This document shows positions 2,632-54,431 of a stretch of DNA of 54,530 bases, in pieces. The stretch lies in NCBI GenBank assembly GCA_017456545.1, contig JAFTJE010000001.1, positions 1 through 54,530 on the forward strand, given 5' to 3'. The notes under the pieces were generated by a model. The model worked only from the letters and a program-made list of their open reading frames with translations. It was not told the origin of the DNA and ran no database searches. This stretch comes from Clostridia bacterium (GTDB lineage Bacteria > Bacillota > Clostridia > Oscillospirales > CAG-272). Every line of letters begins with the position of its first letter. The first letter of the stretch is position 1. Made by a program: the position numbers and the translations under genes.

Positions 2632-5600
2632 GTGAGTGAATTGTGGGATGCGTACTTAAGGTACGGAAAATATGGAATGGGTGCGGTTGCAAGCAACTCT
2701 GTTCTAAAGGTTGAAGAGGATGATTCTGACCTTACTAAGGCTCTAAAAACCGGAGGACAAACTGTATTTGATGCAATGTTTCGATTTACTCAGGGTGCTT
2801 CTAAAAGCATAGAAGGCGTTGTGGATTACGGCTTGGGTATAGGTGCTGGTATAAGTGGTTTTTTCGGCGATGAAGAAAAACAGAGCATGCTGGAAAAAGC
2901 CGTTAGATATGACTGGACTTATGAAAATGTTGCTGCCGGAAACCAGTGGAATGACCATTCGCTTTTGCGTGGGAATACAGTCGGAGAATTCACAGGAAAT
3001 GTTATTGAAGGAGTTGGAGGGATGGTACCTGCCGTTGTTTCAAATGCTGTGCTCCCCGGCTCGGGCATTTTCGTAATGTCTGCAGGTGCAGCGGGCAACG
3101 CCACGGAAGAAGCCTTAAACAACGGTGCAGCTATCGGTCCTGCGTTAGCGTACGGAACTCTTAGAGGATCTATAGAAGCTCTGACAGAAAAGCTTGGAGG
3201 ATTTAACTTCGGTGGTGGAACTGTAGCAGGCAAGCTCACGGCCGGCACGACACTTGGAAAAGCAACATCTAAGGGTATCGGTAAACTTGCAGAAAGCTTT
3301 GTTGCAGAGGGCACTGAAGAGGTTATATCTGATATGCTTGATCCTTTAGCTAAAAAGGCTACAGGGGTCGATACCAGAAGCCTGGATGAACAGTATGCCG
3401 AGGTGCAGGAAGGTCTTGGCGAAACATTCCTTACAGGTGGTGCTGTTGGTACCATTATGAGTGGAGGACAGAATTTTGTAAGAAACTCTGCAAACCGTGA
3501 AAGAGGTGGAGCAAGGGCCTCAAGGGCAGACGATTATATATCATATGTCAGTGATATATCGGCTAATCTCAAAGGCACAGACGCAGATGTAAGATACGAT
3601 AGGGCTATACATGACTCCTTTATCGGGATAGAAGGTGAACTTATGCAGATGAGTGAAAACTCTCGTAAAAACTACCTTAAATCCCTTGAAAAAACGCCTT
3701 TCAAAATGGCATTTAATGAAACAGGTAAATATGTCGGTGCCAAAGCAAACAATATAAATCCCGGAGCTATTAGTAATAATCTACGCAATCTCTCGGCAAA
3801 TCTTAAATATAAAGCTGTCAGTGCCGATGTGGAGCTTAGTGAGGATGCTATCAAGGGTAAGAAGCTTATCGAAGATATATTTGGTAAAAATAGTGCTTCT
3901 GTAGTCATATCCGATGATATGGATGCTAACACAAGAATGACTGTTGATATCAGTACAGGTGTTATATACATAAATAACAATATGGAATTCGATGAAAAGT
4001 TTTCCGTTGCAGTTGCAGCCATTCACGAAATTGTACATACAACAGAGGGAACAGAAGAATACGAGGAGCTTGCTAACCTTGCCTTTGCTGTTTTTTCAAT
4101 GGATGAATTCCAGAATACATACAAGAATGTGGATTTTTCTGAAATTGATATTGATAATCTAACAAAGGCACAGGCAGAATATGTACTCTCAACCGAGAAG
4201 GTAGCTGACCTTGTAGGACACCTTCTTTCAAGCCCATCCGCCCTTGCCAAGCTCAGAGCAAGAAACAAGGGAGTATTTGAAAAGCTTAAGGCTATATTCC
4301 ATTTTGCTCACGACAGCTCCACATCCAAAGAGGGTAAAAAGACTCTTAAAAAGGTCCTTGATTCATTTGATAAAGCACTCGAAGCATCTCACGGTGGCGT
4401 TCTCTTAAGCGATCTAAGTGACGATGAGGAAAAAGAAAACACCGAGCAGGGGCACGGTGTGGATGAGGAGAGGGATTCGAAAGCGTCAAAAGAAAAGGAT
4501 CAAAGTTTTATAAAGGATAAATATTTCGAGTCCCAAATCGACAAATGGAAATCTTTAAGTCACGGTTCTTATGTTAAGGTTGGTGAGCTACACAGTTCAC
4601 ATCCTTTGTGCCTTGTTGGAATGCCAAGTGGCGTTTTAAGATATGATGTATCAAAAATCAATAAAAATATGAGCAAGCATTCGTCATATTTAACGATTGG
4701 GCTATTAAAGGAAATTCCTAATATTATTGAACATCCAATAGCAATAACTGAATTCACGGAAGAAAATACGGTTAATGTTTTTGGAAATGTTTTTGTTAAT
4801 AACCATCCTATGATGTTAGGTGTAACAATTTCAAAGGATAGAGCTGGTAATGATATAAGCAAGATTAGAACATATAATTTAAGAAGAGATGTTGAGAAAA
4901 TAATTACAGATGAAAATATCCTTTATCTTAACGAAGATAAAAAAAGAACCCAAGAATGGTTCCAAGCCTGTGGGAAACAAGTCCCTTTAGGGGGAAACAA
5001 ATTCGGGTTCATACATAGTATATCACAAAATCTGAAAAATGTCAACATTGATGAGAGAAATTCTAAAAAAGCCACAGGCAAAGGCGTAACATGGGACGAT
5101 CTTAATACAGATAGTCATGTACTGCCGGAGGATAACAGTGATATAAGGGTGCATCCTCCAAAGCCTAAGAATAAAGCTGAAGCAAAGGAAGTCTCTGAAA
5201 AGAAAGAAGTTAAAAAAGCAAAGAGACCGCTTAAAATAACTAAGGCGTTGACCAATGAAGAAGGAATTAACATTATATCCTATATTATGGAGGACCATTT
5301 TAAGTGTATTACTGCGGACACTAAAATGGCTTATATTCCTAAGGAAGCTCGCAAGGACATAATCGACAGGCTTACTCATATTGCTGATACCAATGATATG
5401 GAGTCTTATGTGGGCAAGGTATACGATATAGCTGAGCTCATCTGCAACGAGGCTGTTATTCGTGAGCAGTACGATATATCTGACCGTGTAGATGTAGAGG
5501 AGGCACGCAGAACTGTTGATATTCTTAATTCGTATAAGGGTAAGATAAATCTTGAAGCTATACTGGAGGATATTAAGACTGTATATGATACCCGTGCCTC

Positions 5601-24044: not shown

Positions 24045-24203
24045 CTGCCCACATTTCCACCGTCCTTCATCACCCACAGGGTGCGGGCGGCGAAAATGCT
24101 TCCACGCCGAGTAACCGACACTGATGAAGCTCAAATCTCCTCACCAAACAAAAAAGGACACCGATATGGTGTCCTATTTTGTTGGCGGAGAAGAGAAGAT
24201 TTG
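24045..24203. repeat. 159-bp direct repeat, copy B (overlaps the true tRNA-Ser 3' end)
   Basis: This is the second copy of the 23812-23970 repeat. Its right end is the 3' end of the intact tRNA-Ser gene. On the minus strand it supplies the tRNA terminator (hairpin at about 24152-24172 with the T-run 24151-24146). A segment reading CTCAAATCTCCTCACCA on the plus strand (around 24130) resembles another serine-type tRNA 3' end facing the opposite way, so the block is roughly palindromic around the terminator. Confidence 0.8.
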
Positions 24204-24273
24204 AACTTCCGCGCCGGTTACCCGACCTACACCCTTAGCAGGGGCGCCTCTTCGGCCACTTGAGTACTTCTCC
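24183..24273 (-). tRNA. tRNA-Ser(GCU)
   Basis: The minus strand folds as a long-variable-arm tRNA of 91 bases including an encoded CCA: acceptor GGAGAAG/CTTCTCC, D-arm with AGTGG, anticodon loop CTGCTAA (anticodon GCT), a variable arm, and T-loop TTCAAAT. It reads AGC/AGU codons. It has its own perfect promoter upstream and a hairpin terminator downstream. Copies of its last 21 bases elsewhere in the window (23950, 9338 and a variant at 9157) show that its 3' end serves as an integration target. Confidence 0.93.
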
Positions 24274-36481: not shown

Positions 36482-36484
36482 GTA

Positions 36485-36851
36485 CGAACTGAACCTATAA
36501 GCCGTGTTCTGTAATCGACGGTCATCTATCTTTGCGTCCCGTCACCGGAACGCTTCGCAAAATATTGCGTGCCACCCACAAGAACGGCAAAAAGCCTTAT
36601 CGGGCAAATAAAGGTTCTTGTATACGGTGTTGCTTCGGATAGGGTTTACACCCACCCCATGTTACCATGGCGTGTCGTGAGCTCTTACCTCGCGTTTTCA
36701 TCCTTACCATAAAATGGCGGTAATTTTCTGTTGCACTTTCCCTAAGGTCACCCTCGGCTGATGTTATCAGTTATCCTGCCCTATGAAGCACGGACTTTCC
36801 TCACGGTAATACCTTTCGGCGACATACCGCGCAACCGTCCGGTTCAGTTCG
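36485..36851 (-). ncRNA. rnpB: RNase P RNA (class A)
   Basis: The minus strand carries the universal RNase P core: GAGGAAAGTCCGTGCT near the 5' end and the matching 3' conserved part, with ends GAACTGAACC/GGTTCAGTTC pairing as helix P1. The roughly 365-base length and layout fit class A (ancestral) RNA, as in most Clostridia, rather than the Bacillus class B. With the protein RnpA it removes 5' leaders from tRNA precursors. A perfect promoter ends about 6 bp before the 5' end, and a terminator follows. The end coordinates are set by the P1 pairing and are approximate. Confidence 0.95.
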
Positions 36852-43968: not shown

Positions 43969-45012
43969 ATGGATTTTATAAAAGAGTCATTAAAGGAGCT
44001 ATGCTCGCTTATGACGGTTTCCGGATTTGAAAAAAAGAGTCGCACAAGGCTTTTTGAAATTGCCCGTCAGTATTTTGATGAGGTAAGTGAGGATTCCTTT
44101 GGCAACTTTGTTTTTGTGAAAAAAAGCCTGAATAATAACGCCCCAAGGCTGATGATAGATGCCCATTTTGATATGGTAGGAATGATGGTTACCGATATAT
44201 TGGAGGGAGGATTTCTCTCTGTCACCAATATCGGAGGACTCGATACCCGTATTCTTCCCTCTGCCGAGGTTACAGTATACAGTAAAAGGGAAATTTACGG
44301 CTTGATATCCTCTATCCCTCCCCACCTTAGTAAGTCGGGCAGTAAGAGCAGCGTTCCGACGCTTGAGGAGCTTTATATAGATACAGGCTATTCCGTGGAT
44401 GAATTAAAGGAGCTTGTACCTGTTGGTGCCCCTGTTGTTATAAACGGAGAATATACCGAGCTTCAGAACGGGTTTGTGGCTGCTGCCTCATTGGATGATA
44501 AGGCTTGCGTATGTGCCGTATTTGATGCCGTAAGGCGTATAAGTGCAGAAGAGCTTAAATATGATATATATGTTACGGTCTCTGCTCAGGAGGAAACGGG
44601 TAAATGCGGTGCAGCCCTTTCTGCCTGCCGTATCAGACCTCAGATGGCGATAATTACAGATGTTAATTTCGGAGCTATTGAGGGCGATAAGGATTATGAC
44701 AGCATTGTATGCGGCAAGGGAGCATCCGTAGATATATCGGCTCTTACCGACAGAAAATTGACAAGGGGTGTAATGAGACTGCTTGATAAGGAGGGCGTGC
44801 AATATCAAAGAATCTGTGAGCCCTCATACACTTATACAAACAACGACCTTGTATCGGTAACTGGAGAGGGTATTCCCACCGTTCTTATGAGCATACCTCT
44901 CCGTTCTATGCACACTCCTGTTGAAACGGTTTGTCTTAAGGATATAAGGTCTCTTGCCGATATTCTGATTAGAGTCGCATATACAGAGAAGACCGATTTG
45001 GAGGCAATATGA
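43969..45012 (+). CDS. M42 family metalloaminopeptidase, first of three
   Basis: The 347-residue protein starts 2 bp after the murD stop and has the M42 metal-site pattern: IDAHFDMVG (His66, Asp68), LDDKACVCAVFDA, QEETGKCGAALSA, a DVNF segment where others have DVT, and MHTPVE (late His). The family removes N-terminal residues from peptides in the cytoplasm with two metal ions. It overlaps the next M42 gene by four bases (ATGA). It is the most diverged of the three copies. Confidence 0.88.
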   Translation: MDFIKESLKELCSLMTVSGFEKKSRTRLFEIARQYFDEVSEDSFGNFVFVKKSLNNNAPRLMIDAHFDMVGMMVTDILEGGFLSVTNIGGLDTRILPSAEVTVYSKREIYGLISSIPPHLSKSGSKSSVPTLEELYIDTGYSVDELKELVPVGAPVVINGEYTELQNGFVAAASLDDKACVCAVFDAVRRISAEELKYDIYVTVSAQEETGKCGAALSACRIRPQMAIITDVNFGAIEGDKDYDSIVCGKGASVDISALTDRKLTRGVMRLLDKEGVQYQRICEPSYTYTNNDLVSVTGEGIPTVLMSIPLRSMHTPVETVCLKDIRSLADILIRVAYTEKTDLEAI

Positions 45013-46034
45013 AGGAATTACTTAAGAAGCTAAGTGAGGAATTCGGACCGAGTGGTTATGAGGACAGAGTAAGGTCCGTGATAAGAGAGTATATTGAAAG
45101 GGACCTGCCGAAGAATTGCGAAATAGCAGAGGATAGGGTAGGAAACCTGTACTTTCATGTAATAAATAGGGACAAGCCAAGACTTATGATAAACGCCCAT
45201 ATGGATGAGGTGGGCTTTATGGTTAAGGGAATTACCGAGGACGGATTTTTGAGGTTCGGCTGTGTCGGTGGTATGAACCCTTTAGTGCTTGGAGCCAAAA
45301 GGGTAGTGTCCGAGAGGGGAATAAAGGGTATTATATCTGCAAAGCCCATTCATCTTCTGACAAATGATGAGAAAAAGCAGCTCCCTAAGGTAGACGATAT
45401 GTTTATTGATATAGGAGCCACATCAAAGGAGGATGCCGAGAAATACGCAGATATCGGAGATTATTTTATATTTGATTCCGGATATGTGGAATACGGAGAC
45501 GGATTTATTAAGTGTAAGGCTCTCGATGACAGACACGGATGTGCCATAATGTGTAAGCTGATAGATGCAATCAAGCAGGGAGCAGATACGGAATACGACC
45601 TATGGTTTGCATTTACCTGCCGTGAGGAAATATCCTATTCGAGTGCAAGATGTGCCTCTGAATATGTAAATCCGGATTATGCCTTGGTTATAGAGTCAAA
45701 GGCTGTACAGGATATATATGGCGTGGACGACGAGAAAAAGGTTTGCATCCTCGGTGACGGAGCCATTGTTTCCTTTATGGATAATTCAACTGTATATGAT
45801 AAGGATATGGTAAATAAGCTTATATCAATTTGTAAGAAAAATAATATACCGTATCAGCTAAATAAGTACATTTCCGGGGGAAATGACTCCTCTGCGATAC
45901 AAAAAAGCATATGTGGAGTAAGGGTGGGACTTATCTCCGCCCCCTCGAGATATATTCATTCCCGGGCGAATGTGGTTAAGTACACGGACCTGGAGGCAAT
46001 GTATGAAATAGCCCTCGGGCTTATTAAGGAGTAA
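45009..46034 (+). CDS. M42 family metalloaminopeptidase, second of three
   Basis: The ATG overlaps the previous stop. The 341-residue protein keeps INAHMDEVGF (His64, Asp66), ALDDRHGCAIMC and a YIHSR motif with late His, but the catalytic Glu region reads CREEISYSS rather than QEEVGLRGA, and the fourth metal ligand region reads VIESKA rather than DVT. These changes suggest altered substrate or metal preference while keeping a metal-binding Glu. It is translationally coupled to both neighbours. Confidence 0.88.
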   Translation: MKELLKKLSEEFGPSGYEDRVRSVIREYIERDLPKNCEIAEDRVGNLYFHVINRDKPRLMINAHMDEVGFMVKGITEDGFLRFGCVGGMNPLVLGAKRVVSERGIKGIISAKPIHLLTNDEKKQLPKVDDMFIDIGATSKEDAEKYADIGDYFIFDSGYVEYGDGFIKCKALDDRHGCAIMCKLIDAIKQGADTEYDLWFAFTCREEISYSSARCASEYVNPDYALVIESKAVQDIYGVDDEKKVCILGDGAIVSFMDNSTVYDKDMVNKLISICKKNNIPYQLNKYISGGNDSSAIQKSICGVRVGLISAPSRYIHSRANVVKYTDLEAMYEIALGLIKE

Positions 46035-46036
46035 TT

Positions 46037-47014
46037 ATGACCGAATTGTTAAAAAAGCTTGTGCTGACATCAGGTGTGTCGGGCAGAGAGGATAAAATAA
46101 GAGAGGTAATTAAGGCAGAGGCAGAGAAATACGCCGATGAGATAATTATCGACCCTATGGGCAACCTTATAGCCCATAAAAGGGGAAAGGGAAAGAAAAT
46201 AATGTTTGCCTCCCATATGGACGAGATAGGCTATTTTGTTACCTTTATAGATGAAAAGGGACTTATACGGGTTGGAAATGTAGGAGGAATAAATACACTT
46301 TCGGCATCATATTCGGAGGTGGTATCCGAAAGAGGTGTATGTGGAGTGGCTCTGCCATCTGACAGTAACGAAGTTCCAAAGGTTGATGCACTCTGTATTG
46401 ATATCGGTGCAAGGAGTAAAAAGCAAGCAGAAAAAAGAGTAAGCATAGGGGACTATTTCGTACACGCCCCCCACATAAAAAGGCTTTACGGCAATATATA
46501 TACAGGCAGACCTCTTGATAACAGAATAGGCTGTCTTGTGCTTCTTGAGGCTCTTAAAAATGTAAAGCCTACGGATAACGACTTGTATTTTGTATTCACC
46601 GTACAGGAGGAGGTTGGACTTCGTGGTGCTAAGCCTGTAGCCTACCGTATTGAGCCGGATATAGGAATAGCTATAGATGTTACCTCGGCCGGAGGTAAGC
46701 CCACATCTCCCAAGACAAAGGTAAAAATTGGAGGGGGAGTGGCTATAAAAATAAAGGATGCCTCTGTAATTTGCTCCTATGAAATAGTGGAAAAAATGAG
46801 AGAGCTCTGTCTTGACAGCAATATAAAATATCAGGATGAGATTCTTTTGAAGGGTGGAACGGATACAGGAGCAATACAGACAGCAAAAATGGGATGCCTT
46901 GTGGGAGCCTTGTCCATTCCGACAGCCTACATTCACTCCACAAATGAAATGATAGATATTAGCGATGTAAAGGAAGCAATCAAGCTTACCTGTGCCATTG
47001 CCGAGAGGATTTGA
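46037..47014 (+). CDS. M42 family metalloaminopeptidase, third of three
   Basis: The 325-residue protein starts 2 bp after the preceding stop, with AAGGAG before it, and has the canonical M42 motifs: ASHMDEIGYF (His60, Asp62), PLDNRIGCLVLLEA, QEEVGLRGAK, IDVTSAG and AYIHSTNE. It is closest to the classical glutamyl/leucyl aminopeptidase group. Its stop precedes the ATG of the lipoprotein gene by 2 bp. The three copies probably arose by tandem duplication and divergence. Confidence 0.9.
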   Translation: MTELLKKLVLTSGVSGREDKIREVIKAEAEKYADEIIIDPMGNLIAHKRGKGKKIMFASHMDEIGYFVTFIDEKGLIRVGNVGGINTLSASYSEVVSERGVCGVALPSDSNEVPKVDALCIDIGARSKKQAEKRVSIGDYFVHAPHIKRLYGNIYTGRPLDNRIGCLVLLEALKNVKPTDNDLYFVFTVQEEVGLRGAKPVAYRIEPDIGIAIDVTSAGGKPTSPKTKVKIGGGVAIKIKDASVICSYEIVEKMRELCLDSNIKYQDEILLKGGTDTGAIQTAKMGCLVGALSIPTAYIHSTNEMIDISDVKEAIKLTCAIAERI

Positions 47015-47016
47015 AA

Positions 47017-48102
47017 ATGAAAAAGCTTATAGCACTTATTTTAACACTGACACTTATTTTGACTGCACTCCTGCTGACCTCGTGCAGTCAGGATTTGGCA
47101 CCCGACGGGGAGCCGATTCCCGATGATATGAAGATAGCAAGCAACACTGCTATGGTTAATTATCTACTTTTTGTGCCCGAGTATTGGATAATAGATACAC
47201 AGACCTCCGTTACAATGGCACATGCCTCATCCACCGACTTTACCTCAATTCAGGTAATGAGCAAAAAGCTGGACGGAGAGGTGACCAATCTTGACTCTTG
47301 GTGGAATGAGTATAAGGAGGAGCTCACAGGTGCGGGCAAGGTGCAGTATATTACTCAGAATGAAAAAATAGTAATAGACGGTATAGCAGGTAAAAAGGCT
47401 GTATATAAGATCACGGTTGACAGCACCGTAATCACAGATTCGGGTAAGGAAAATGTTGTTTCCAACACCTACAAATGTATGGTTGTTGGTGTAATAAAGG
47501 GTGACAGCGTTTATGTGATTCTTTATAATTCCGTAGAGAATGAGAAGGGTGACCTTTTTGAAGCCAATATGGAGGATGTGGATAGCATGCTTGAGAGCTT
47601 TCGCTTTACGGACAGGCTCTATCCGACAGAGGGAGAGCCTAAGGATGAAGAGAATATTCCCGATGGTATGAAGATTGCAAGCAATACAGATGTAGTTGAT
47701 TATACTCTCTATATTCCGGAAAACTGGATAGTAGATATACAGACAGGTGTGACTATGGCACATGTGTCGGAGAAGGACAAGTCGAGCATACAGGTGGGTC
47801 AGTGGAGCTACAACGATAAAATCAAGGATTACGAAACCTGGTGGCAGGACTATAAGTATGAGCTTTCCCTTGTTGGCGAATATGAAATAATAACCGAGCC
47901 TACTGAGATAACCGTGGCAGGCGTTTCATCAAGAAAAGCAGAATATAAGCTTACCACAGCAAACGGCGAATATAAGTGCCTTGTTATAGGTGTGGAAAAC
48001 CGTGGAAGCATGTATGTAATTGTATATATGTCTACAGAGAATGGCTATGAAGCCAATATGGAAGAAGTAAACCGTATAGTTGAGAATTTTAAGTTTAACT
48101 GA
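47017..48102 (+). CDS. Lipoprotein with two tandem copies of one domain
   Basis: The ATG at 47017 has AGAGG upstream; TTG 47011 is less likely. The 361-residue protein starts with a lipoprotein signal peptide ending LLTSC (lipobox Cys about residue 23). The mature part consists of two homologous halves of about 160 residues: each begins MKIASNT, continues Y.L(F/Y)(V/I)PE.WI.D.QT.VTMAH and ends (V/S)(M/R)(L/V)E.F(R/K)F. The fold may be PsbP/Mog1-like, as judged from the pattern, but this is not certain. It should be anchored on the outer face of the membrane. It overlaps no neighbour and precedes the cysteine desulfurase by 1 bp. Confidence 0.85.
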   Translation: MKKLIALILTLTLILTALLLTSCSQDLAPDGEPIPDDMKIASNTAMVNYLLFVPEYWIIDTQTSVTMAHASSTDFTSIQVMSKKLDGEVTNLDSWWNEYKEELTGAGKVQYITQNEKIVIDGIAGKKAVYKITVDSTVITDSGKENVVSNTYKCMVVGVIKGDSVYVILYNSVENEKGDLFEANMEDVDSMLESFRFTDRLYPTEGEPKDEENIPDGMKIASNTDVVDYTLYIPENWIVDIQTGVTMAHVSEKDKSSIQVGQWSYNDKIKDYETWWQDYKYELSLVGEYEIITEPTEITVAGVSSRKAEYKLTTANGEYKCLVIGVENRGSMYVIVYMSTENGYEANMEEVNRIVENFKFN

Positions 48103-49463: not shown

Positions 49464-49492
49464 TTGTATAAATAAGCTTTGTGTGATAAAAT
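49464..49492 (+). promoter_or_regulatory. Promoter of the sigma-factor fusion gene
   Basis: TTGTAT (49464-49469), 17 bp, TAAAAT (49487-49492), about 105 bp before the ATG. It resembles a sigma-A promoter rather than a typical ECF autoregulated AAC..CGT promoter. Confidence 0.5.
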
Positions 49493-49598
49493 TAAATTGT
49501 TCATAGCAAATTTTACTTTTCACCCAACCTTTCCCATTTGTTCCGTGTCTTATCTTGTGAAGACGCAAAAACGCTTCAATAATTCAAAGGAGGTCAAA

Positions 49599-52500
49599 AT
49601 GCACTTCAAAAATCAGGACGACAAAACTCTTGTAATGCTTACCCTTGTGGGAGAGCAGGAGGCATATGAGGCTTTGGTATCTCGGTATCAGCGTACGGTC
49701 ATTGCTTCGGCCATGAAAATAACACATAATCAGTTTATGGCTGAGGATTCTGCTCAGGACGCCTTTGTTACAGCGTGGATGAAGCTGGATACATTGGAGG
49801 AACAGGAAAAGTACGGGTCCTGGGTTTGCAGGATAGCAAAAAACTGTGCCATGAATATGGTGAGACGGTACAGTGGCTTTATTTCCGTGGACCTTTCGGA
49901 ATACGGGGATATAGCCGATGATAAGGATGCCGATCCCGAGCACAGATATGTAGCCTCTGAGGAAAGGGATGAGCTGCATACAGCTATAAGCAAGCTGTCA
50001 GAAAAGGTGCGTACCATTATACAGCTTTATTATTTTGAGGGGCTTTCTATTGTTGATATAGCAGACAGAATGCGTATATCTCAAGGCACTGTAAAATGGC
50101 AGCTGCACGACGGAAGAAGGAAAATAAGAAAGGAGCTATGTGCTATGAACGAAAAATGGAATGATACTCTTGTGGAAAGAGTAATGAAAAAAGTGGAGGA
50201 GCTTAAGCTCTGGCGAATCAAAAACTGTAAGGACGGCTTTGAGGTCGTATACAAGGATGTGCTGAGGGAGGTTGAGGACCTGCCCGAGAGTGCAAGAAAA
50301 TATCATGCTCTTGCAGATGTTTTGGAGAGTGGATGGTGGTGGACCAACGGAGATAAATCCAATGAGCATTTTGCAAAAATAAAGGAGGCAGCTATCAAGG
50401 GCAGAAATGAGGATGTAATGACCTTTATTGTAGCCCGAGAGGATGAGCAGGTTCCCTACGATGCAAGAACCGAGTTTATGAAAGCAAAGCAGATTCCCAT
50501 GCTTGAAAAAGCAGGGTTTACAAAAGCCTTGGCGTACGAGTGGTTCTGGCTCGGTTACAAATATCTTGAAAACGGAAAGAGTAAAGAAGGCAAGGAAGCC
50601 TTAAATAAGGTGCAAAATTTAGTTGATATAACAAATGAGCACTATATACTTGCACCAAGGGCTATTGAAATATTCAATAAAAAGAATAATGAATTAAAAA
50701 ATAAGCATCAATATAAATACTCAATAACCTCAGGAGTGGAAAAATACAGGTATATCGATAAGCAGCTTTTCCGTTGGAATAATATCAGCATAGGAGAGGG
50801 ATATATTCAATCTGTGGATACGGATGTAAGAGGTGTATTCTATAATTCATCCCTCTGCGACGGAAAATTTTTTGCTGATATAACCGTTGGAGAGGAGTAT
50901 GTCGGCAGCGATAACAGTAAGCTTATTTTTGTAAGCGATAAGGAAACAATAGACACTCCTGCCGGTATTTTTGAAGATTGTCAGCTTTGGAAAACTGTCT
51001 ATACTCATAGAAATCTGGATGTATCCGTTTATCTTACATGGTATAAGGATGGCATTGGCATTGTAAAGCATTCTCATACGATTTACGGCAACACCGAGTC
51101 TATGTTGCTAAGCTCCTGTGATGTAGTAGGAGGAACAGGTCTTTTACCTATGGCAAAGGGAAATAAGTGGCACTATGTGTGCGAGCTTGCTCCCGAATAT
51201 GCTGTTTCCGTCTCTGATTTTGAAGTTGTATACACTGATAAGGATTATGTGGGTATTTCCCAAGATAGCTATACAGAGCGTATTGGCTATAATAAGGACT
51301 GCTGGCTTGATATGATTCAGGCAATACGAAATGAATACTTTGACAGGACAAAATCCGGTAACGAAAAGCTTAAAGACACCACAGAATATATAGAAAGGGC
51401 AGAGGCTCTTGCAAAAACTCCTATGGAAAAGGCACACACAAAGCTTGCATGTGCCTTGGCTCGCAGACTTATGAGAACAGCTAAGCATCTTACACCGGAT
51501 ACGGATATTACAGGTCATTGGAACTTCTTTTCGAGAGAAGCCGTGGTTAAAAAAGACGGCGTAATAAAAATCAATTCCTCACGCAAGTGGAATTTCGAGT
51601 GGAAGAACACTTCTTCTCTCGGAAATGCTGGACAGCCCCTTCTTTACAATGATATTTACGGAATACTACAGGATGCTGCAAATTGCATATGGTCCGACGA
51701 ATGGAGGGTTGGTGCTACTCCAACTGTGGAATACACACTTTGGGAAACCAAAAACATAAAAACTAAGATTTTGTGCGAAAAATCCGACCCCGTTATTACA
51801 AAATCAGGCACATTTGATGACTGCATTAAGCTTACTCTTGATATAGAGGGTATGAAGGATGGCTGGGCATACCGTGGTGGTAACAAGGTGTATTACTTTG
51901 CTAAGGGCATCGGTATAGTACGCTGTGAGCATGAATTTGCAGACGGTGCAATGAGTGCAGTATATGAGCTTACATCATATAAAGGCAAAGGTGACGGATA
52001 TATGCCTCTTGACGACGGTATGGAACGCCATTATGAGGCAAAGGACCTTACGGACGGATATATTGCTATGGTGGACTATGCATATGTAGAGGACGAGACG
52101 GGAAATATTGTTATTTTTGAGGATAAAACAGGCATACGGAGGATTCAGGCTCCTGTTACTCAGTACAGTAATATAAGGAATGAGCTTCTTACAACCGAGC
52201 TTTGGAACAACGGTAAGCACAAGGAGGCTCATATGCAGTTTGCAGTAAACAGTCTTAATCTTTTCATACATTTCATAGCCCGTCCGAGCTATAATGCATG
52301 GGATGCTAAGCGTTCTGTCGAGCTCCATAAATACAATATGGCTCTTATTGAATCTGCCGGAAACGGTAAGGTGCCGGATGGCTTTACAGGTCTTTACGGC
52401 TGGGTATCCCTTGTGAGAAGTGCTGCTCACTTTGGGAATGGGGAAAAAGAGGACGGATACAGATACCTGGAAATAGCACTCGATTATTTTGAGAGGTGGA

Positions 52501-52766
52501 GCTCCTTTGAAAAGGGAGCAGAGCTTTCAGCAGGCAATGAGGTGCTCTTCGGTGGAGCAAAAATTGTAAAGGGCAAGGGACACACAATTTTTGCAAACGG
52601 AGTAAAGGAGCCTCTTGAATTTGAATACCGCATCGACCCCGGTATGTGGATACCTTACAACTCCATGGCAGAAAACAATAGCTGGGCATGGTTCAATTCC
52701 GTTAGGGAAGAGGAACGCTTTAAGACCCTTTGCAGTCGGGCTCTTGAACTGATGAAAAATAAATAA
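49599..52766 (+). CDS. ECF sigma factor fused to a very long C-terminal extension
   Basis: The ATG at 49599 follows AAAGGAGG, giving 1055 residues. Residues about 5-180 form a complete ECF sigma factor: region 2 (EAYEALVSRYQRTVIASAMK, EDSAQDAFVTAWMKL) and region 4 (LYYFEGLSIVDIADRMRISQGTVKWQLHDGRRKIRKEL). The other 870 or so residues hold a helical, TPR-like part (about 185-380) and two copies of a beta-rich module with TPAGIFEDCQLWK/KSGTFDDCIKL and GIGIV(K/R)(H/C) motifs, plus two further helical parts. No membrane segment or anti-sigma gene is seen. The extension may sense a signal or control the sigma part. The reading frame is continuous, so this is a true fusion. Confidence 0.85.
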   Translation: MHFKNQDDKTLVMLTLVGEQEAYEALVSRYQRTVIASAMKITHNQFMAEDSAQDAFVTAWMKLDTLEEQEKYGSWVCRIAKNCAMNMVRRYSGFISVDLSEYGDIADDKDADPEHRYVASEERDELHTAISKLSEKVRTIIQLYYFEGLSIVDIADRMRISQGTVKWQLHDGRRKIRKELCAMNEKWNDTLVERVMKKVEELKLWRIKNCKDGFEVVYKDVLREVEDLPESARKYHALADVLESGWWWTNGDKSNEHFAKIKEAAIKGRNEDVMTFIVAREDEQVPYDARTEFMKAKQIPMLEKAGFTKALAYEWFWLGYKYLENGKSKEGKEALNKVQNLVDITNEHYILAPRAIEIFNKKNNELKNKHQYKYSITSGVEKYRYIDKQLFRWNNISIGEGYIQSVDTDVRGVFYNSSLCDGKFFADITVGEEYVGSDNSKLIFVSDKETIDTPAGIFEDCQLWKTVYTHRNLDVSVYLTWYKDGIGIVKHSHTIYGNTESMLLSSCDVVGGTGLLPMAKGNKWHYVCELAPEYAVSVSDFEVVYTDKDYVGISQDSYTERIGYNKDCWLDMIQAIRNEYFDRTKSGNEKLKDTTEYIERAEALAKTPMEKAHTKLACALARRLMRTAKHLTPDTDITGHWNFFSREAVVKKDGVIKINSSRKWNFEWKNTSSLGNAGQPLLYNDIYGILQDAANCIWSDEWRVGATPTVEYTLWETKNIKTKILCEKSDPVITKSGTFDDCIKLTLDIEGMKDGWAYRGGNKVYYFAKGIGIVRCEHEFADGAMSAVYELTSYKGKGDGYMPLDDGMERHYEAKDLTDGYIAMVDYAYVEDETGNIVIFEDKTGIRRIQAPVTQYSNIRNELLTTELWNNGKHKEAHMQFAVNSLNLFIHFIARPSYNAWDAKRSVELHKYNMALIESAGNGKVPDGFTGLYGWVSLVRSAAHFGNGEKEDGYRYLEIALDYFERWSSFEKGAELSAGNEVLFGGAKIVKGKGHTIFANGVKEPLEFEYRIDPGMWIPYNSMAENNSWAWFNSVREEERFKTLCSRALELMKNK

Positions 52767-53635: not shown

Positions 53636-54313
53636 TTATTCTGTTTTTGTCTCATCTATAAGTCTGTTGAGCTCGCAGAGTGCATCACTAAGTCCTCCCA
53701 CACGGTCTATCAGCCCGCAGCTTTGTGCCTCGTATCCGTCAATAATAGAGCCTGTATCTGTTGCGATTTGGTCGGTTCTCATCATAAAATTACGAAAGTC
53801 CTGCTCGGATATTCCGGAATGTGAGGATACAAACTTAGTTATTCTGTCCTGCATCCTTTCAAAATAATAGTAGGTCTGAGGTGAGCCTACCACAGTTCCG
53901 CTTATGCGTACGGGATGTATTGTCATGGTGGCAGATGGGACAATAAATGATTTTGTTGTGCACACTGCCAGGGGCACACCGATAGAATGACCTCCACCGA
54001 GCACAAGGGAAACGCTTGGCTTTTTCATGCTCGCTATCATCTCGGCAATGGCAAGGCCTGCTTCAACATCTCCTCCCATGGTATTAAGAATTACCAGCAG
54101 TCCTTCAATATCCTTATTTTGTTCAATGGAAACAAGGAGAGGGATTATATGCTCGTATTTTGTGGACTTCTGATCGGGGGATAAAATATAATGCCCCTCT
54201 ATCTGTCCGACTATACTGATGCAGTATATTCTGTCCTCCTTTACTGCTCCGCTTTTTTCGATAAGGTCAATTTTGTCGTTTTCAGGGTTATTTGTGCTTT
54301 TTTCGTTATTCAT
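53636..54313 (-). CDS. ClpP-like serine protease of the TepA type
   Basis: The ATG at 54313 is chosen because GTGAG lies upstream and the N-terminus matches TepA-like proteins; the frame extends to 54343. The 225-residue product has the ClpP/crotonase fold with NTMGGDVEAGLAIAEMI, the nucleophile elbow GGGHSIGVPLAV (Ser near residue 108) and MTIHPVRISG (His). TepA-type proteases are ClpP homologues without Clp ATPase partners, implicated in protein translocation or signal peptide breakdown in Bacillus. There is no signal peptide. In many Firmicutes it lies near ftsK; here it borders an rRNA leader. Confidence 0.85.
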   Translation of the reverse strand: MNNEKSTNNPENDKIDLIEKSGAVKEDRIYCISIVGQIEGHYILSPDQKSTKYEHIIPLLVSIEQNKDIEGLLVILNTMGGDVEAGLAIAEMIASMKKPSVSLVLGGGHSIGVPLAVCTTKSFIVPSATMTIHPVRISGTVVGSPQTYYYFERMQDRITKFVSSHSGISEQDFRNFMMRTDQIATDTGSIIDGYEAQSCGLIDRVGGLSDALCELNRLIDETKTE

Positions 54314-54431
54314 TTTGCATCTCACTTTCGTTATTTTTATCATATATATCCTTATTATTCATTACTTTTTTGTGCTTAATTCCAAAGCTTAAAAAATAAT
54401 AAAAAAACTAAAAAAAAATTCAAAAAAGGTA

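Follow-up and report, generated by a model that had tools for sequence, protein, structure and literature searches.

An extracytoplasmic function sigma factor of gut Clostridia joined to a large soluble multi-domain extension

A gene in a 54,530-nt stretch of DNA from a gut Clostridia bacterium (GenBank assembly GCA_017456545.1, contig JAFTJE010000001.1, positions 1 to 54,530; hereafter the window) encodes an extracytoplasmic function (ECF) sigma factor joined to a large, soluble, multi-domain extension. Residues 1-180 of the product are an ordinary and complete ECF sigma factor, while the remaining ∼870 residues form the soluble extension. We lean towards reading the product as a cytoplasmic one-protein sigma switch with the extension as its built-in regulator. 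The extension probably serves to sense an intracellular signal, and on the best reading by analogy the switch would work like the ECF41 and ECF42 factors, at a far larger size and with different modules. Soluble fused ECF regulators are already known; new here are the scale of the extension, a module shared with XRE regulators, an apparent self-promoter and palindromes in the leader.

The sigma fusion and its modules

The sigma part was identified by TIGR02937 (E 1e-30, 106.6 bits compared to a cut-off of 42.9), and a Pfam search of the protein returned sigma regions 2 and 4 and no region 3, the composition that defines the ECF superfamily. A preliminary description of this DNA had proposed that a complete region 2/region 4 unit continues without a stop into the extension, which is borne out by the uninterrupted frame of 1055 residues and both Pfam domains. 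To find the same fusion in relatives, two peptide patterns taken from the extension were scanned against a collection of one genome for each of 84,980 species. This one scan led to 155 confirmed relatives, the best 80 of which were retained; they are mostly titled Clostridia, Clostridiales, Oscillospiraceae or Lachnospiraceae metagenome-assembled genomes (MAGs), many from herbivore gut. One of them (L096) carries the label of a Bacteroides sp. MAG, as opposed to the clostridial names on nearly all others, and is possibly misbinned or mislabelled. The fusion is continuous in 73 of the 80 loci, five being broken at differing places and two cut by contig ends. In-frame stops near the end of the sigma part occur only in L064 (near residue 205) and L116 (near residue 235), the three other broken loci being interrupted elsewhere, and the arrangement that had been named as speaking for an artefact, i.e., two parts encoded apart, the first ending at about residue 182, was not encountered. 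Comparison of the window gene with that of L039 (87% identical) gave a ratio of nonsynonymous to synonymous substitution rates (dN/dS) of 0.11 overall and 0.07 across codons 150-300, with purifying selection seen in each region tested. Some match was present in 24 of 77 related genomes and a full-length fusion in 11, and since only 8 of 291 genomes across the class yielded a match at E 1e-20 (the genome of the window being included in both sets), we call the family patchy. A mobile origin was rejected, as plasmids and phages searched for the extension gave no match.

The TPR-like helical part of the earlier description is supported by the profile of the extension, which matched designed tetratricopeptide repeat (TPR) proteins (E 8e-13 down) and MamA (E 0.046); TPR_2 in a single-sequence Pfam search was weak (E 0.48). 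The two beta modules with the pattern TPAG/TKSG...C...GIGIV are homologous to each other (hhalign probability 97.5, E 9e-12), so that the earlier account of two such modules stands, although it had missed a third module at the C-terminus (residues 852-1055) and the promoter upstream of the gene. On the full protein, DUF3108_like (PF21347) reached 34.8 bits against a gathering cut-off of 27 in two stretches, the best of which (residues 727-778) spans profile positions 137-186 of 199 only. Residue C742 in beta module 2 is invariant across the 69 members of our conservation alignment (the window protein and 68 of 71 full-length proteins; L044, L073 and L075 were dropped as near duplicates), and two sigma fusions, L033 and L034, have one beta module only. 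A literature search for "sigma factor" with "DUF3108" returned just one paper, on marine metagenome domains.

Directly after sigma region 4 lies a segment (residues 185-214, beginning NDTLVERVMKKVEELKLW...) whose conservation among the 69 members is 0.84, followed by residues 215-285 with 0.76, compared to 0.79 and 0.76 for sigma regions 2 and 4, but the junction values are biased upward because one of the two search patterns sits there. In 16 members found without the peptide patterns the corresponding values are 0.72 and 0.66 for the two junction segments and 0.71 and 0.72 for the sigma regions, and in 10 full-length members found without them residues 185-214 reach 0.89 (sigma regions 0.84 and 0.81), so that the conservation of this segment at least equals that of the sigma domains. 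Pairwise distances in the sigma part correlate with those in the junction (r 0.79), the TPR part (0.73) and the two beta parts (0.70 and 0.78). Taking the conservation of the junction and the distance correlations together, we infer a contact between the proximal extension and the sigma domains, with the distal module as an add-on that can be exchanged.

This distal module (residues 852-1055) is homologous to the effector half of XRE/HTH_3 regulators of the same bacteria. Alignment with the effector half of 11 such regulators from related genomes (HTH_3 confirmed in the three checked, which have 375-386 residues) gave an hhalign probability of 100 and E 3.8e-50 over 197 columns. Unlike the sigma fusion, these proteins consist of an HTH_3 DNA-binding head without sigma part and without beta modules. 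Being common to both, the module looks like an exchangeable input module, which suggests that a single input domain serves two kinds of transcription head; that it is shared with XRE regulators and missing from the shorter sigma fusions (see below) speaks for the extension as an input device, and the XRE proteins would offer a second route to the ligand. A Pfam search with the module gave no family, and the profile of the XRE regulators matched nothing significant outside the helix-turn-helix (HTH) part among the best 60 of 73 matches to solved structures. Peptide receptors of the RRNPP type carry a TPR effector domain behind the HTH; with these in mind the module was compared to the TPR part of the fusion, with an hhalign probability of 28 only. 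In one of the 80 loci (L106), an XRE gene with the shared module (3122-4258) is located directly upstream of the sigma fusion. It was rejected as a partner, being adjacent in this locus alone and lacking in its upstream region the palindromes of the sigma leaders.

The earlier statements that neither a membrane segment nor an anti-sigma gene is present are borne out. None of the 69 members reaches a 19-residue mean hydropathy of 1.6 or above (maximum 1.44; window protein 1.17). No anti-sigma gene was recognized beside the fusion in the window, and a survey of frames of at least 90 residues in the fetched flanks (up to 5 kb) of the 80 loci revealed no neighbor that recurs at a constant position. 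The largest clusters of neighbors, found in 15 (at mixed strand and distance), 5 and 4 loci and presumably comprising ABC ATPases, a response regulator and a serpin-like protein, respectively, were taken as chance; a partner gene was thus rejected on grounds of neighborhood, as these clusters lack a constant position.

Promoter and leader palindromes

For the analysis of upstream regions, 77 related loci and the window were used (n = 78), after dropping L085, which is cut, L110, which is interrupted near residue 32, and L117, which has no start codon near the expected place. The motif AACC-N16/17-GTC is found in 68 of the 78 regions, with a spacing of 17 in 62, and usually lies inside CCCAACCTTTT...TGTCTA. 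Its strict form, CAACCTTT-N13-15-GTC, occurs in 58 of them, compared to a mean of 0.01 and a maximum of 1 in shuffled sequences. By eye, six of the ten regions without the motif (L041, L042, L059, L098, L114, L115) combine AACC and a variant -10 element and three (L071, L081, L087) a variant with GACACTA, while L091, where a contig end is close upstream, shows nothing. An ECF-type promoter in front of so many of the sigma genes implies autoregulation, and the fusion protein probably switches on its own promoter. Within 75 nt upstream of AACC, the pattern TGnTAnRAT of an extended -10 element is present in 32 of the 68 regions (mononucleotide shuffles: mean 1.5, maximum 6), and in combination the two promoters would allow for basal transcription plus autoactivation.

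A promoter model was built from 58 of the 62 regions with spacing 17, excluding one duplicate and three far-upstream sites. When 150 of 1654 first-look candidates in the genome of the window, which is 90.55% complete, were scored, the site in front of the fusion gene (Table 1) was the only one with E below 0.2 among the 17 matches listed, the next best having 12.6 bits; among the ECF paralogues of this genome the model recovered just L002 (12.6 bits) and L005 (8.3 bits), both weakly. In all 11 genomes with a full fusion it finds a site before the fusion at E 0.05 or better, in part on the very sequences used for training. The simple pattern CAACCTTTN{13,15}GTC had 7 matches in the genome of the window compared to 4 for a reversed control and is thus uninformative beyond the self site. 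Across the 77 genomes, 45 matches at E 0.05 were obtained in 33 genomes, of which 13 precede members of this sigma-fusion family, 7 members of a second extended ECF family, one an ABC exporter that follows the sigma gene at a distance of 2.2 kb (genome G020), and one a probable second-family remnant (G002). Inspection of 15 of the remaining 23 revealed no convincing target; one of them (L157) precedes a lipoprotein-like gene. The match in G002 (L151; G002:C218:58957) comprises the promoter and a palindrome, TGAATGCATTCA, before a frame of 148 residues in which the sigma part is not visible and which, resembling by eye the end of the second family, is perhaps a remnant. Locus L042 (7878-12604) harbors, downstream of its sigma gene, a gene for a 606-residue protein and a pair of ABC exporter genes, the first of which has an AACC...GTC-like site ahead of it.

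Perfect 6-bp palindromes are present in 60 of the 68 leaders, starting 9-14 nt from the G of GTC, which by the usual spacing of ECF promoters is close to the expected, unmapped transcription start. After removal of leaders that are 80% or more alike, 34 of 40 have such a palindrome; the offset used most often is palindromic in 21 of these 40, compared to at most 7 in shuffled leaders and to a mean of 6.2 and a maximum of 12 in 2000 trials in which palindrome halves were re-dealt among the sequences. Twelve different palindromes occur (AGCGCT being the commonest, at 40 of 60 sites), which at one and the same place indicates that the symmetry is kept while the sequence varies. Since the 6-bp sites leave no loop, a symmetric site at the level of DNA is favored over an RNA hairpin, which we disfavor for this first palindrome, and the simplest reading is a candidate binding site for a dimer. 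Many leaders have a second palindrome ∼15 nt further downstream, its center variable by eye, that may be an RNA hairpin. The leader in the window contains no perfect palindrome and would have its counterpart in an interrupted inverted repeat (Table 1). Of the seven other ECF genes in this genome, six (not L003) have by eye leader palindromes of 8-14 bp that all differ in sequence, and AACC is likewise seen upstream of six (not L007).

Proposed mechanism and alternatives

In the mechanism that we propose from these sequence comparisons, the extension would stand in for an anti-sigma factor: its conserved junction (residues 181-285) would pack against the sigma domains, and binding of an intracellular ligand or protein partner by the TPR-like, beta and C-terminal modules would change this packing. 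Basal amounts of protein would be supplied by the weak housekeeping promoter, and once the signal is met the sigma factor would read the AACC-N17-GTC that precedes its own gene, thus amplifying itself, further targets being presumably few or equipped with weaker promoters. The one-protein signal system suggested in the preliminary description is consistent with the fusion in most loci, the lack of membrane segments, the conserved junction, the XRE module and the self-promoter. Given the clear predicted promoter and the lack of a partner gene, it can be tested by moving two pieces of DNA into a laboratory host.

Several observations, in addition to the bias in junction conservation mentioned above, weigh against a self-contained switch of this kind. 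The C-terminal module is missing from the shorter sigma fusions L019, L022 and L023, and its pairwise distances correlate more weakly with those of the sigma part (r 0.41). Most of the 33 genomes with promoter matches lack a full fusion, and the strong match in G052 (24.9 bits) has no gene start within 400 nt. In G020, the ABC exporter site scores higher than the self site of that genome (20.8 and 15.7 bits, respectively), and otherwise the model found no convincing non-self targets in the 77 genomes. Moreover, as the second extended ECF family has a similar promoter, another sigma factor could read the site, and cross-talk among these ECF factors is possible.

Control by a separate protein that binds the TPR-like and C-terminal modules and thereby switches the sigma factor appears unlikely. 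A TPR-like part is indeed present, and the TPR extension of ECF42 has been proposed to bind a protein (PMC8999054; cited here, like PMC3426412, from excerpts), but one TPR stretch only is supported in an extension that is mostly not TPR, and no candidate neighbor keeps a constant position in the 80 loci. We find it quite unlikely that the extension acts as a fused anti-sigma factor whose degradation, e.g., by Clp, frees residues 1-180. Such proteolysis might be served by a gene 0.9 kb downstream of the fusion (53636-54343, minus strand), which we take from its sequence to be ClpP/TepA-like, but the recurring neighbor clusters of the 80 loci include no protease gene, and an extension conserved as several modules is unlike a short degron. 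Precedents exist in both directions, proteolysis having been suggested for ECF115 and reported for IutY (PMC8999054), whereas the proximal extension of ECF41 is needed for activity (PMC3426412).

That the modules reach the cell surface after cleavage, the other possibility raised earlier, is very improbable. Apart from TPR proteins, the best solved-structure match of the extension is 3fzx, a "putative exported protein" (E 0.009), and this resemblance of the DUF3108-like modules is what remains of the claim that they otherwise belong to secreted or envelope proteins. A PF21347 search of 44 genomes including that of the window, which would miss weaker exported relatives, returned nine matches at E 0.001 or better, one of them above the cut-off, but eight of these belong to open frames that encode fused sigma proteins, the ninth to a paralogue-like fragment of 164 residues. 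The C-terminal module, for its part, is also found behind HTH domains. Secretion was rejected because none of the 69 members has a hydrophobic segment that could act as a signal peptide, which together with the co-evolution of modules and sigma part leaves entry into the wall unsupported. There is hardly any chance at all that sequencing or assembly joined two genes: the stop in L064, a single relative of 80, would point that way, but we reject it in view of the continuity in separate assemblies and the low dN/dS across the junction.

Related ECF factors and surroundings of the gene

At least 26 ECF groups are described as having extensions, the longest named being up to 400 residues and containing transmembrane helices (PMC8999054). 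Members of ECF41 (Ecf41Bli, SigJ) resemble the sigma fusion in having no anti-sigma factor, a soluble C-terminal regulatory extension, a conserved promoter motif and very few targets (PMC3426412; PMC8999054). According to the same excerpts, the distal part of the ECF41 extension is inhibitory and the proximal part needed, with a single target (PMC3426412). However, the ECF41 extension is one SnoaL-like domain, compared to 870 residues and several modules here, and its promoter reads TGTCACA...CGTC instead of AACC...GTC; the Pfam matches of the sigma fusion include no SnoaL family, which sets it apart from ECF41 and ECF56. ECF42 shares the TPR-like part behind sigma region 4, but its extension of ∼200 residues is rich in TPR, whereas the fusion has one TPR-like stretch in 870 residues, the rest being mostly beta and other modules. 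ECF48, ECF52, ECF53 and IutY are unlike the fusion in their transmembrane fused anti-sigma part, as judged from its hydropathy (KD19). Clostridial model proteins also represent two extended groups that appear under "Others" in Table 2 of PMC8999054, ECF262 (Ruminococcus albus) and ECF288 (Blautia producta). Our literature search, whose coverage did not extend to the main reclassification paper, found no ECF factor with an extension of like size or composition, and the family may therefore already be a numbered group, e.g., ECF262.

The genome of the window, 1.9 Mb in size, encodes at least eight ECF factors, most of them extended. Six further ECF-like genes, L003-L008 (five frames of 523-592 residues and one of 331), have extensions of other types. 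Beyond the sigma part, L003-L006 and L008 are homologous to the second extended ECF family (L155, L156, L162, L166, L171, L181 and L182), which is like the sigma fusion in its AACC...GTC-like own promoter (found by the model in all seven) and in the palindrome that follows in most members, but unlike it in an extension of ∼350 residues with a start that by eye is winged-helix-like; L004 gave weak HTH matches (E 0.017-0.026). A paralogue of 592 residues (open frame 607), L002 (G000:C34:77271), combines the sigma part with a weak DUF3108-like match (E 0.012) and is preceded by an AACC site; L186 contains a truncated copy similar to it in sequence. It is tempting, though rather unlikely to hold in full, to speculate on a clostridial toolkit in which varied large extensions are mounted on ECF heads with AACC...GTC promoters of their own, and in which a dimer of the extended protein, or else a dedicated regulator, reads or covers the symmetric site that each gene has near its transcription start. 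The sigma factors would then mainly transcribe their own genes, forming one-gene bistable or memory circuits, with the input module being swapped with XRE repressor heads.

Table 1. Features in and upstream of the sigma fusion gene (window coordinates; aa, amino acid residues)
Feature	Position	Strand	Basis
Likely housekeeping extended -10 element (TGaTAAAAT), putative basal promoter	49484..49492	+	pattern in relatives
-35 element of ECF-type promoter, CCCAACCTTT	49523..49532	+	motif in upstream regions
-10 element of ECF-type promoter, TGTCTT	49546..49551	+	promoter model, own site 25.3 bits, E 2.3e-5
Inverted repeat TGAAG-N11-CTTCA in leader	49558..49578	+	by eye; putative counterpart of relatives' palindromes
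Ribosome-binding site AAAGGAGG	49586..49593	+	read from sequence, ahead of ATG
Extended ECF sigma factor gene, 1055 aa	49599..52766	+	one stop-free frame, ATG start, continuity in relatives, dN/dS
Sigma region 2 (aa 26-91), with acidic AEDSAQDAF motif	49674..49871	+	Pfam PF04542 Sigma70_r2, E 1e-11
Sigma region 4 (aa 124-176)	49968..50126	+	Pfam PF08281 Sigma70_r4_2, E 2e-13
Junction and neck (aa 181-285)	50139..50453	+	conservation level with sigma domains; sigma contact proposed
TPR-like part (about aa 300-371)	50496..50711	+	match of extension profile to TPR proteins of solved structure
Beta module 1 (about aa 370-540), TPAG.F..C and GIGIV motifs	50706..51218	+	hhalign to module 2
Insert between beta modules (about aa 560-640), of helical appearance	51276..51518	+	alignment, by eye
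Beta module 2 (about aa 641-850), DUF3108_like	51519..52148	+	Pfam PF21347 E 1.3e-8, extension alone
C-terminal module (aa 852-1055)	52152..52763	+	hhalign to XRE/HTH regulators; missing from shorter relatives

The fusion gene stands alone between two genes, the second of which is convergent; we take them to be a cysteine-desulfurase-like gene and a gene for a small membrane protein. Further upstream, three successive genes (43969-47014), presumably M42-like aminopeptidases, are followed by a gene with two similar halves (47011-48102) whose product we assume from its translation to be lipoprotein-like. The window also contains an RNase P RNA (class A) at 36482-36850 and a tRNA-Ser(GCT) at 24183-24273, both on the minus strand.

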